The notes under the pieces were generated by a model. That model made no database searches. It saw nothing but the letters and a program-made list of their open reading frames with translations, and was not told the origin of the DNA. From positions 1 through 64,000 of the forward strand of contig JAHUUL010000004.1 of assembly GCA_019218415.1 (NCBI GenBank): 64,000 nt of DNA, written 5' to 3'. Origin of the DNA: Dermabacteraceae bacterium TAE3-ERU27. GTDB lineage: Bacteria; Actinomycetota; Actinomycetes; Actinomycetales; Dermabacteraceae. Position 1 is the first letter of the stretch; each line of letters opens with the position of its first letter. Position numbers and translations under genes: made by a program. Below, one piece after another: positions 48,330-52,797 of this stretch.

Positions 48330-49145
48330 TTACGCGGTGATCACGTTGCCCTGACGCGCTAGCTGCGCCAGATCGCCGCCGCTCAGCAGCCTTACCGTGA
48401 CGGCGTCCCGCCGCAACGCTCGCTCCAGCCCTGCGGGCGGTGCCACATCGGCGGCGAGCAGCACGCAGTTGCCGTAGCGACGCTTCTTAAAGACGCCCGG
48501 CTCCGCGATCACGTGAACCTGCTTAAAGGCCTCGGAAAGGGTTGCGTATTCGTCGGCCAGCAGCGTCGTGCCGGGCTTGGCCGCGCAGTTAACCAGATAG
48601 CTTCCCTGCTGCCCGACGGCGCGCCGGGCCTGCTGCGCTGCGGCCAGCGTGGTGAGGGAGGTCGGGGTTTCGTCCCCCGCAAAGACGTCCCGAATTAGCA
48701 CGTCGCAGCCCGCCTCCGGGAGCGTCGGCAGGGTGGCTATCGCGTCCGCCGCACGCACCCGCACCTCGGGGGAGCGCGGCAGATCGAACCAGGCGCGCGC
48801 ATTTTCTGCCAGGACGCGATCCAGCTCCACTACCAGCTGCCTAGAGCCGGGGTGCCCCGCGGCGATAGCGCGCGCGAGCGTGCAGGCGCCGCCGCCCAGG
48901 TGCGTCACCCGCACTGGTGCGGGGGGAGCGTGGAGTTCATCCACCGTGCAGCGGATCCAGCGCATGTATTCGAAGCTGAGCGTGAGCGGGTCCGGGTGCA
49001 CCTCCGAACTGGGTACGCCATTAACGAACAGGGTGAGCGTGCCGTCGGTTTCCCGCGTAATACGGGCCGTTCCCGTCCCTATCTCAATGTCTTGCTCCAA
49101 CGGGGCGCCGCCCGCGGCTTTCTTTCCCTCTGCTTTTCTTGCCAC
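48330..49145 (-). CDS. Spermidine-synthase-like methyltransferase-fold protein
   Basis: 271 residues. The spermidine synthase (SpeE-like) fold is indicated by the N-terminal beta segment (LTLFVNGVPSSEVHPDPLTLSFEYMRWI), the nucleotide-binding glycine motif THLGGGACTLARAI, the acidic VVELDRVLAENA, and the DVLIRDVFAGDETP segment. In this clade the catalytic GDxx of true spermidine synthases is altered (RDVF), so it may be a methylase or a non-canonical enzyme. It has no transmembrane half, unlike fused actinobacterial forms. It is divergent from dinB. Confidence 0.82.
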   Translation of the reverse strand: MARKAEGKKAAGGAPLEQDIEIGTGTARITRETDGTLTLFVNGVPSSEVHPDPLTLSFEYMRWIRCTVDELHAPPAPVRVTHLGGGACTLARAIAAGHPGSRQLVVELDRVLAENARAWFDLPRSPEVRVRAADAIATLPTLPEAGCDVLIRDVFAGDETPTSLTTLAAAQQARRAVGQQGSYLVNCAAKPGTTLLADEYATLSEAFKQVHVIAEPGVFKKRRYGNCVLLAADVAPPAGLERALRRDAVTVRLLSGGDLAQLARQGNVITA

Positions 49146-49192
49146 CCCTGCAGGGTAGATTGTTTAGGGTGCCGATTCGGGGAGGTGAGGGT

Positions 49193-50344
49193 GTGAATGA
49201 CGACGGGTGCAACATTCTTCATGTAGACATGGACGCCTTCTTCGCGTCGGTAGAAATACGCGATAACCCGGCCCTGCGCGGCCTGCCCGTGGTTGTCGGC
49301 CGCGACGGTCCACGCTCCGTGGTGGCGGCGGCCAGCTATCCGGCACGCGCCTACGGAGTGCATTCCGCGATGGCGATGGCGATAGCCAAGAGCCGCTGCC
49401 CCAAACTGGTGGCAATCCCGCCACGCATGGCGCACTATCGCGCCATCTCGGCACAGGTGATGGCGATACTGGAATCGTTTACGCCGGTTGTCCAGCAGGT
49501 AAGCGTGGACGAAGCGTTCCTGGACGTCTCCGGGGCGCTGCGCCACTTCGGCTCTCCCGGCAAGATCGCGGCCCAAATCCGTGCGCGCGTACGCCAAGAA
49601 GTGGGACTGCCCTGCAGCGTAGGGGTGGCCGCCGCGAAATCGATAGCGAAGATAGCCTCCGGCAAGGCGAAACCGGACGGCTTGCTCGTGGTTCCCGCGG
49701 CGGAAAGCGCCGCGTTTCTCGCGCCGCTGCCGGTCGGCGCGGTTTGGGGCGTCGGCCGGGTGGCCTCCGGCAAACTCAGCAACATGGGCATCCACACCGT
49801 GGGGGATCTGGCTGCGGTGCCGCTACCCACGCTGCGGCGCATAGTCGGCGTGCAGGCGGTTCCCATGCAGCGCGTCGCGCAGGGGCTCGATGATGCGCCG
49901 GTAGGCACTCAGCGGGTGGATAAGAGCATGGGCATGGAACGCACCTACGACGAAGACCTGGTCGGTTACCGCGAGATTCACGCGCAGCTCGTGGACATGG
50001 CCGACACGGTAGCGGCCAGGTTGCGCAGCCACGGCACCGCCGCCCGCACCGTCAGCATCAAGGTCCGTTTGGGCGACGGGCAGACCCTCACGCGCAGCGT
50101 TACCATGACGCAACCGTCCGCCAGCGGGGAAAGAATCCGTGAGCACGTGCTCGCCCTCTGGCAGCGTCTCGGCCTAGCGGGGCAGCGGGTGCGCCTGCTC
50201 GGCGTGCGCGGGGAAAACCTGGGCCCGGCCGCGAGCATGGAGCTAGCCAGCCGCGAGGGATGGGACGAACTAGAAGCCGCCATGGACAGGGCCAGGCAGC
50301 GTTTCGGGGAGGCGACCCTGCGGCGCGGCTCTACCCTCCTTTGA
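49193..50344 (+). CDS. dinB: DNA polymerase IV
   Basis: 383 residues from the GTG at 49193. Y-family translesion polymerase. The catalytic motif HVDMDAFFASVE lies just after the start, and the second catalytic carboxylates are in QVSVDEAFLDVS. The little-finger domain follows from about 240. The C-terminus ends with FGEATLRRGSTLL, and no beta-clamp peptide (QLxLF) is obvious in that tail. GGGGAGGTGAGG precedes the GTG. An upstream GTG at 49169 has TAGATT seven bases before it and could be a leaderless start. No LexA box is visible, so SOS control is not supported. Confidence 0.94.
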   Translation: MNDDGCNILHVDMDAFFASVEIRDNPALRGLPVVVGRDGPRSVVAAASYPARAYGVHSAMAMAIAKSRCPKLVAIPPRMAHYRAISAQVMAILESFTPVVQQVSVDEAFLDVSGALRHFGSPGKIAAQIRARVRQEVGLPCSVGVAAAKSIAKIASGKAKPDGLLVVPAAESAAFLAPLPVGAVWGVGRVASGKLSNMGIHTVGDLAAVPLPTLRRIVGVQAVPMQRVAQGLDDAPVGTQRVDKSMGMERTYDEDLVGYREIHAQLVDMADTVAARLRSHGTAARTVSIKVRLGDGQTLTRSVTMTQPSASGERIREHVLALWQRLGLAGQRVRLLGVRGENLGPAASMELASREGWDELEAAMDRARQRFGEATLRRGSTLL

Positions 50345-50445: not shown

Positions 50446-50814
50446 ATGCCACTGTCTGAATACGAACAGCGCGTGCTCGCCGAGATGGAGAAGCACCTGT
50501 TCGAGCAGGACCCTGAGCTTGCCTCCGCGCTGCGCGAGGACGCGACCCCGCGCAGGGATAAGAAACGGGTGGTGCTGGGCGTAACGATAGCGATTTGCGG
50601 CTTCGGCCTGCTTATCGCCGGCATGGCCACACAGCAGATCTGGCTTGGCATGCTGGCGTTCCTGGTGATGCTGGCGGGCGCGCTCACCGCGATCCTGGCC
50701 CCCACAGTGATGGGGGCGGCTGGCGGAGCGAAGTTTGCGCAGCGCGATGTGCGACAGCAGGGCGGTAGCTTCATGGATACGATGCAAAAGCGCTGGGAGA
50801 GCCGGGAGCAATAG
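50446..50814 (+). CDS. DUF3040 membrane protein
   Basis: 122 residues. The N-terminus MPLSEYEQRVLAEMEKHLFEQDPELASAL is the DUF3040 signature; two transmembrane helices follow (about 46-64 and 67-88), separated by a short turn, with a charged C-terminus. It is an actinobacterial family with no known function, often near dinB or mraZ, as here. Its expression may be linked to the division cluster but it ends in its own terminator. ATAAGGAGAC precedes the ATG. Confidence 0.88.
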   Translation: MPLSEYEQRVLAEMEKHLFEQDPELASALREDATPRRDKKRVVLGVTIAICGFGLLIAGMATQQIWLGMLAFLVMLAGALTAILAPTVMGAAGGAKFAQRDVRQQGGSFMDTMQKRWESREQ

Positions 50815-50877
50815 CGCCTCGGCTAAGCACCTCCCGGTCCTGGGCGGTGCAGAACAAAACCAAATAGGCGCGCTTGA

Positions 50878-50912
50878 GCGGGTGGTTTCCCTGTCGGGAA
50901 CCGCCCGCTTTT
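50878..50912 (+). terminator. Rho-independent terminator after DUF3040 gene
   Basis: GCGGGTGGTTTCCC pairs with GGGAACCGCCCGC (one bulge) with a 4-nt loop, followed by TTTT. It separates the DUF3040 gene from the mraZ promoter region. Confidence 0.88.
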
Positions 50913-51242
50913 GTCGTTCTAGACCGTGTTCTGAGCCCAGGGATGGAAAAATCCCTCCACCCCGCTCCACTCGTCCCTCCACTTTGCCCCCACTAAGCCC
51001 CATATTCGGATAAAACTGCAGGTCAAAAGGGTGGGGGTCGGTGGAGTGGATTTGCTTGCGGGGGCTTTGGGAAATAATTGCTCCACATCACTCCACGCTA
51101 TCTACCTGCGCTTTTGCTGTGTGTAGAAACTTTTTTGGGATTCATGGGTTACCAAGTGGTGTGGAGTGGGGTAAAGTGGGGGCATCGGGAAGAGAGGCTC
51201 TGACGAGAGTCGCTCCAGGAATCCGCCGGGAGGTGAAGCGCC
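50913..51242 (+). promoter_or_regulatory. mraZ upstream control region with GTGG/CCAC repeat clusters
   Basis: A 330-bp gene-free stretch. It holds four clusters of the MraZ-box core in alternating orientation: CCAC-type at 50955-50994 (four copies, spacing 10, 12, 11), GTGG-type at 51030-51050, CCAC-type at 51081-51096 (spacing 10), and AGTGG at 51155, 51165 and 51175 (exact 10-bp period) just before mraZ. MraZ binds direct repeats with 10-bp period upstream of its own operon; the last cluster fits that. The other three are additional. A -10/-35 pair is not clear. Confidence 0.65.
51155..51184 (+). promoter_or_regulatory. MraZ box (three direct repeats)
   Basis: AGTGG repeated at 51155, 51165 and 51175 with exact 10-bp period, 60 bp before mraZ. 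This matches the known MraZ operator, direct repeats of TGGG/GTGG cores. MraZ autorepression of the division cluster is therefore likely. Confidence 0.75.
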
Positions 51243-51674
51243 ATGTTTCTTGGCACCTTCACGCCCCGCATGGACGACAAAGGCAGGCTTATCTTTCCGG
51301 CCAAGTACCGTGACCAGCTGGCTGCGGGGCTTGTGGTGACCAAGGGGCAGGAGCACTGCATCTGCGTCTATCCGATCCGTGAATTCGAGCGGATCCACGA
51401 AGACCTGCGCAAGGCTCCCGTCACGAGCGGCGACGCTCGGGATTACGTCCGCATTCTGCTTTCTGCGGCGGAGGACCTGACCCCGGACAAGCAGGGGCGC
51501 ATCACCATTCCGGCGGAGCTGCGCAACTACGCGAAGCTGGAAAAGGAATGCACCGTGATCGGTGCCGGTCACCGGCTGGAAATCTGGTCGCCCACCGCAT
51601 GGGAGGCCTACCTGCGGGAAAAGGAAGAGAAATTCGCGGAGACCGCCACGGAAGTGGTTCCGGGACTCTTCTAA
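51243..51674 (+). CDS. mraZ: Transcriptional regulator MraZ
   Basis: 143 residues. A DNA-binding protein made of two SpoVT-AbrB domains that regulates the division and cell-wall cluster. Both copies of the DxKGR motif are visible: [15 protein letters not shown] near residue 10 and [16 protein letters not shown] near 83. GGGAGGTGAAGCGCC precedes the ATG. Its own operators lie upstream. Confidence 0.96.
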
Positions 51675-51834: not shown

Positions 51835-52797
51835 ATGCCCACGCATATTCCCGTGCTGCGTGATCGCTGCGTGGAACTCCTCGGCGGCAACCTCCGCGAG
51901 GGCGGCGTCTACGTTGATGCCACCCTGGGACTGGCGGGACACGCCGGCGCCGTGCTGTCGGCCTATCCGCAGGCATTCCTGGTTGGGATAGATCGCGACA
52001 CGCAGGCGCTAAGCGTAGCCAAAGAAAGATTGCTCGCTGCCGGGCACGAGGGGCGCTTCCACCTGGTGCACGCCACCTACGACGAAATCCCGCGCGCGCT
52101 TGCCGAGGCCGGCTTCGCTGCCGCTGACGGCATCCTGATGGACCTCGGGCTTTCCAGCCTGCAGATAGACGATGACGCACGCGGTTTTGCCTACCGGGTG
52201 GATGCCCCGCTGGACATGCGCATGGACCAGGAATCGGACACCCCTACCGCGGCCGATCTGCTGGCGGAACTGGATGAGTCGGAACTGGCGCACATCATCA
52301 GCGAATACGGTGAGGAACGTTTCGCGCGCAAGATCGCTAGGCGCATCGTTACGCAGAGGGAGACGCAGCCGCTAACCCGTTCCGGGCAGCTGGTGGAACT
52401 CCTAGACCGTGCCATCCCCGCAGCGAGCAAGCGCAGCGGCGGGCATCCGGCGAAGCGCACCTTCCAGGCGCTGCGCATCGCGGTTAACCGTGAGTTCGAG
52501 ATTCTCGACCGCGCGCTCAACTGCGCGCTTGACTCGCTTAAGGTCGGCGGCAGGCTGGTCATCGAGTCTTACCACTCGCTTGAGGACCGCCGTGTAAAGC
52601 AGGCATTCGCTTCCCGTACCCGTTCGAGCGCCCCGGCTGGGCTGCCGCTCGAACTAGAGGAACACAAACCAACTTTCCGCACCCTGACCAGGGGAGCGGA
52701 ACAGGCAGACGAAACAGAACAGGAAACTAACCCGCGCTCCGCATCGGTGCGTTTGCGTGCGGTGGAAAGAATCCGCGAAGACCGGAGGAGGAACTAG
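51835..52797 (+). CDS. rsmH: 16S rRNA (cytosine-1402-N4)-methyltransferase RsmH (MraW)
   Basis: 320 residues. Methylates C1402 of 16S rRNA in the decoding site. The N-terminus HIPVLRDRCVELLG is diagnostic, followed by DATLGLAGHAGAVL (SAM site), GILMDLGLSSLQID, and DMRMDQ; the C-terminal motif ESYHSLEDRRVKQAF is complete. GAGGAGGAGC precedes the ATG. The 160-bp gap from mraZ holds the structured RNA. Confidence 0.97.
   Translation: MPTHIPVLRDRCVELLGGNLREGGVYVDATLGLAGHAGAVLSAYPQAFLVGIDRDTQALSVAKERLLAAGHEGRFHLVHATYDEIPRALAEAGFAAADGILMDLGLSSLQIDDDARGFAYRVDAPLDMRMDQESDTPTAADLLAELDESELAHIISEYGEERFARKIARRIVTQRETQPLTRSGQLVELLDRAIPAASKRSGGHPAKRTFQALRIAVNREFEILDRALNCALDSLKVGGRLVIESYHSLEDRRVKQAFASRTRSSAPAGLPLELEEHKPTFRTLTRGAEQADETEQETNPRSASVRLRAVERIREDRRRN

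Follow-up and report, generated by a model that had tools for sequence, protein, structure and literature searches.

The mraZ gene of Dermabacteraceae bacterium TAE3-ERU27 lies behind an intergenic region in which MraZ-box-like repeats form four clusters, here called A, B, C, and D. Array D consists of direct boxes at the promoter, as expected of a MraZ operator, and the locus raises the question of whether the other three clusters are MraZ sites as well and what they would do there. MraZ is among the most conserved bacterial regulators. The window analyzed here is the first 64,000 bp of contig JAHUUL010000004.1 (assembly GCA_019218415.1), and the features of the locus are collected in Table 1. 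The SCO2097-family gene is closed by an intrinsic terminator, so the DNA behind the terminator was treated as a separate regulatory region, and the clusters occupy the roughly 330 bp from there to mraZ. The gene behind array D encodes a genuine MraZ in which neither DNA-binding half is missing: PF02381 matched two stretches, TIGR00242 scored above its cut-off, and each of the two AbrB-like halves carries a DxxxR motif (DDKGR and DKQGR). Among named relatives, Dermabacteraceae bacterium TAE3-ERU5 is the nearest, and its MraZ is 99% identical.

Table 1. Features around the mraZ upstream region (positions in the window)
Feature	Position	Strand	Details
dinB	49139-50344	+	first in local gene order
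SCO2097-family gene	50446-50814	+	points toward mraZ, followed by terminator
Intrinsic terminator	50876-50910	+	15-pair stem, 5-nt loop, T-rich tail
Cluster A, distal inverted MraZ-box array	50957-50993	-	CCAC at 50957, 50967, 50979, 50990; spacings 10/12/11
TGACCTGC element	51018-51025	-	5 bp from cluster B; kept in sister species
Cluster B, direct MraZ-box pair	51031-51050	+	GTGG at 51031, 51041; off-phase core 51046
Cluster C, promoter-adjacent inverted MraZ-box pair	51083-51096	-	CCAC at 51083, 51093
TGACCTGC, local form TACCTGC	51103-51109	+	candidate activator site; 69 bp upstream of -10
Putative -35 element of mraZ promoter, TTACCA	51149-51154	+	17-bp spacer to -10
Array D, direct MraZ-box array	51155-51184	+	boxes at 51155, 51165, 51175; extra core 51160-51164
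Putative -10 element of mraZ promoter, TAAAGT	51172-51177	+	within array D
mraZ	51243-51674	+	143 aa; PF02381 E 6e-42, TIGR00242 137 bits vs cut-off 98
rsmH (mraW)	51835-52797	+	second gene of dcw cluster

To judge the clusters against chance, 5000 dinucleotide shuffles were used as the baseline. There were 13 GTGG/CCAC cores in positions 50930-51242 (313 bp), compared with a shuffle mean of 3.6 and a maximum of 11. Pairs of cores spaced by ten bp numbered 5 (shuffle mean 0.03, maximum 2), and 3 such pairs remained when array D was left out (mean 0.01, maximum 1). The 10-bp period was exact in B, C, and D and partial in A. Furthermore, DGTGG-N5-DGTGG occurred 38 times in the 2-Mb genome, 4 of them here within 222 bp; the exact form AGTGG-N5-AGTGG was found across the genome in array D only, and no group comparable to the four clusters was found elsewhere in it. 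In addition, all boxes of A-C (8/8) read GTGGRG, a form present in 10% of the other GTGG copies of the window (p = 1e-8).

The original prediction had placed the AGTGG boxes of array D, with their exact 10-bp period, and the plus-strand GTGG pair of cluster B exactly where we found them. For clusters A and C, it gave the orientation correctly, and the cores in fact start 2 bp earlier than it had them. The extra GTGG cores at 51046 in B and 51161 in D, which lie half a turn off phase, were absent from it, and it mentioned neither the TGACCTGC element beside the inverted arrays nor the position of array D over the core promoter. The A/B part of the region is approximately a mirror image of the D/C part, with B, TGACCTGC, and A following one another on the minus strand as C, TACCTGC, and D do on the plus strand. 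This arrangement looks as if it came from an inverted duplication, and the minus-strand copy shows no -10.

Conservation in close relatives had been named beforehand as a check on the extra clusters. Comparison with the sister species (G001) showed 30/32 bases kept in the box cores of clusters A-C, against 105/172 (61%) for the remaining bases in 50930-51148 (Fisher p = 1e-4). All core bases of A (16/16) and B (8/8) were kept, as were all bases of the TGACCTGC sites (15/15), so that the check came out positively except for the second box core of C, which was lost.

The wider survey covered 143 usable actinobacterial mraZ upstream regions. The family contributed 45 of these, the remaining families of its order 66, and a class-wide sample 32, which came mostly from other orders (L175 and L189 among them belong to the same order). 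One genome of the order, G256, had two MraZ-like matches, the better one with an E-value of only 4.5e-27. Upstream of the promoter array, the ten-bp pairs were 211 inverted versus 4 direct. The ratio was 93:3 within the family, 99:1 for the order outside the family, and 19:0 in the class-wide regions, and the shuffle means did not exceed 1.4 in any of these sets. An inverted pair preceded the direct array by 60-110 bp in 38/45 family members and 36/66 regions of the order outside the family, and it began 73-75 bp ahead of the first direct box in 35/45 and 16/66, respectively. Measured from the -10, the inverted pair was at 89-91 bp in 35/54 cases. For cluster C, the distance is 73 bp to the first direct box and 89 bp to the -10.

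Distal inverted arrays like cluster A were found in most family members, and direct pairs like cluster B in only 3/45 (this species, its sister, and L009). Judged by this distribution, cluster B is a genus-specific addition, at the level of the genus plus sporadic cases. Thus, the alternation of orientation (-,+,-,+) that was originally predicted is correct for the window and does not hold as a general rule. The wider rule that emerges from the compared regions is a single direct array on the promoter, preceded by at least one inverted array. Furthermore, the extended consensus DGTGGRGNRA is common to inverted and direct boxes. On their own strand, they are flanked, like the direct boxes, by R at +4, by G at +5 in 95%, and then by an A-rich stretch, and unpaired GTGG copies had no such flank preferences (p = 4e-65 vs inverted boxes).

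MraZ was not detectable in 13 genomes, which probably represent two independent losses only: 10 come from one genus with genomes of 7-10 Mb (L228-L237), probably Streptomyces, and 3 have genomes near 1 Mb. No ten-bp pairs were found within 600 bp upstream of rsmH in these 13 genomes. In the two large MraZ-less genomes whose upstream regions were inspected, the promoter (TTGACC...TAAAGT) was still visible with a single relic box. As a side observation, MraZ was missing in all 10 genomes sampled from this large-genome actinobacterial genus.

Clusters A-C were thus kept in relatives with mraZ, B in the genus only, and lost in genomes without it. The extra arrays are very probably MraZ sites because they are conserved, show the inverted bias, share the consensus of the direct boxes, and have no counterpart in the genomes without MraZ. 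The assignment of the additional clusters to MraZ in the original prediction is therefore supported, with conservation in the sister species and, for inverted arrays, across the family and order. Judged from the same comparisons, the predicted occupancy of the inverted arrays by MraZ is strongly supported.

The promoter itself was assigned by comparison. Class-wide, the direct array lies over the core promoter, with the -10 (GTANNGT) between two boxes, and TTGAC was found 22 bp before this -10 in 40/101 relatives examined. We infer that mraZ and the dcw genes are transcribed from a core promoter formed by TTACCA and TAAAGT; array D would cover the spacer and the -10 of this putative promoter. 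A generic promoter scan did not call the mraZ promoter and found no sigma-70-type promoter.

The inverted pair is closely followed by the element TGACCTGC, which in most cases lies 20-21 bp from the start of the pair. Among 101 regions, 23 had the inverted pair together with TGACCTGC, 15 had TGACCTGC only, and 31 had the inverted pair only. Its distance to the mraZ -10 was 71 or 72 bp in 37/49 matches, most often 71 bp, and 81-83 bp in 10/49, which is the fixed distance, with alternatives about one turn away, that we looked for as the mark of an activator site. The element was also found upstream of 20/34 rRNA operons in Dermabacteraceae, and it is present in the rRNA leader of the analyzed genome itself, at the end of contig 32. 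At the rRNA operons, its distance to the rrn -10 (TAATGT) was mostly 75 or 86-89 bp, with further cases at 101 and 113 bp. Because of its fixed distance from the -10 and its occurrence at rRNA promoters, the simplest reading of TGACCTGC is a probable activator site, for a factor that would serve both the rRNA and mraZ promoters. A reading of TGACCTGC as a -35 element was rejected, since TANNNT followed 16-19 bp after it in 0/44 cases. Genome-wide, TGACCTGCRNNDWYG matches were enriched over the reversed pattern; many of them lay within coding DNA, and for this reason the enrichment was set aside and the rRNA-promoter test was used instead. Further TGACCTGC loci were seen in L152 (about 1489-1503), L196, L197, and L241-L270.

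We propose that the region is probably a multi-array autorepressor operator, in which the inverted arrays farther upstream would work together with the one on the promoter and would also influence the candidate activator site; considerable room is left for other readings. This proposal builds on the existence, conservation, shared consensus, orientation bias, and spacing of the arrays and on their absence where MraZ is absent. MraZ on array D would exclude RNA polymerase from the core promoter, which is classical autorepression and fits the anatomy of the region. The upstream arrays A and C, in opposite orientation, would be further MraZ sites. With MraZ on both C and D, the candidate activator site TGACCTGC would be bracketed, and so MraZ could block the polymerase and at the same time prevent or counteract activation. 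We infer this antagonism of the predicted activator, which could come about through local occlusion; alternatively, one or two MraZ rings could hold the 74-bp stretch in a small loop. Antagonism alone cannot account for the inverted array, because the array and TGACCTGC are separable, as in the regions with an inverted pair only. As a more tentative and rather doubtful extension to the Actinomycetes as a whole, MraZ might form an orientation-coded complex of two or more arrays, with rings on the direct array at the promoter and on an inverted array upstream. These rings would clamp the intervening DNA and shut off an activator site common with rRNA promoters, and a growth-linked activator of ribosome synthesis would then no longer drive the division cluster.

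Several other explanations of the inverted arrays were considered. Their main job could be DNA bridging, in which one or more MraZ rings on the inverted and direct arrays close a 74-bp loop around the DNA upstream of the promoter, independently of the TGACCTGC factor. The opposite orientation and the tightly fixed spacing of 73-75 bp in the family and in other families would suit such a role, as would the 31/101 regions with inverted pairs and without TGACCTGC. In solved structures, MraZ chains form oligomers of several copies, and the protein has been described as an octameric ring (PMC7761207); MraZ chains are present in PDB entries 9qlr, 9qlg, 9r4j, 9sx6, and 9sz7. Looping or bridging is compatible with the fixed spacing. 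However, when the main mode is set aside, the alternative spacings of the inverted array (103, 111-115, and 124 bp from the -10) are not clean helical multiples. A 74-bp loop would also be costly, and bridging as the main function is in our opinion unlikely. As for strict helical phasing between inverted and direct arrays, one spacing class dominates the signal. The original prediction had also suggested control of a second promoter, which might be divergent (on the minus strand) or distal. A direct MraZ array overlaps the promoter at other mraZ promoters, and A and B with the minus-strand TGACCTGC mirror D and C in the window. However, at the place corresponding to the TAAAGT of array D, the minus strand reads GGAWWT and not TANNNT in the regions inspected by eye, and a divergent promoter under A or C was rejected for this lack of a -10 in the matching place. 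The 0/44 count of TANNNT after TGACCTGC, the promoter scan mentioned above, and the upstream gene, which is oriented toward mraZ and closed by a terminator, likewise speak against a second promoter, which we regard as improbable.

The inverted clusters could also be due to another protein, or to a DNA or RNA structure, such as inverted repeats pairing C with D. The arms at 51081-51092 and 51155-51166 are indeed 92% complementary over 12 nt, but this complementarity is explained by the same motif standing in opposite orientation in C and D. Moreover, a transcript starting just downstream of the -10 would leave C and most of D untranscribed, and the terminator would shield them from upstream transcription; thus, an RNA hairpin between C and D was rejected. 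The arrays also vanish together with MraZ, and a structure or another protein as the cause is improbable. Finally, GTGG is a common word in this GC-rich genome, with 697 copies elsewhere in the window, and chance or compositional clustering in a G-rich intergenic region could be imagined. However, this is already refuted by the shuffles, the orientation bias, the fixed spacing, the conservation, and the loss together with MraZ, and its probability is negligible.

In Burkholderia cenocepacia, Mollicutes, and Escherichia coli, the MraZ operator is made up of GTG-core repeats that recur every 10 bp where the MraZ-headed dcw operon has its promoter or start site (PMC7761207, PMC8475190), and autorepression by blocking of the polymerase has been established there (PMC7761207, PMC8475190). 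Array D, with its direct GTG-core boxes of 10-bp period at the mraZ promoter, resembles these operators. However, they are described as one direct array, and here inverted arrays stand upstream at a fixed distance, beside a second element, TGACCTGC. In the open-access papers searched, we found only single direct arrays and no account of MraZ arrays that are inverted or occur several times in one operator. Compared with these published arrays, what may be new according to our sequence comparison is the presence of several arrays, with the upstream ones inverted, recurring across a whole order of Actinobacteria. Because they are almost always inverted and at a fixed distance, the upstream arrays are natural DNA substrates for testing ring bridging.

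A second regulator of an actinobacterial mraZ promoter has a parallel in Dietzia, where MtrA acts on the mraZ promoter in gel shift (PMC9602371). However, MtrA is reported there as a repressor, and TGACCTGC is common to rRNA promoters and is a candidate activator site. Our results point to a second factor acting on both the division cluster and the rRNA operons, and thus to a possible direct link of division-gene expression to growth rate.

LacI, GalR, and AraC combine a main operator on the promoter with auxiliary upstream operators at set distances. The same plan of a main promoter operator and upstream operators at set distances is seen in the region studied here. However, the operators of LacI, GalR, and AraC are not arrays of short head-to-tail boxes. 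The arrays upstream of mraZ are built of non-palindromic boxes, and therefore their orientation would carry information.
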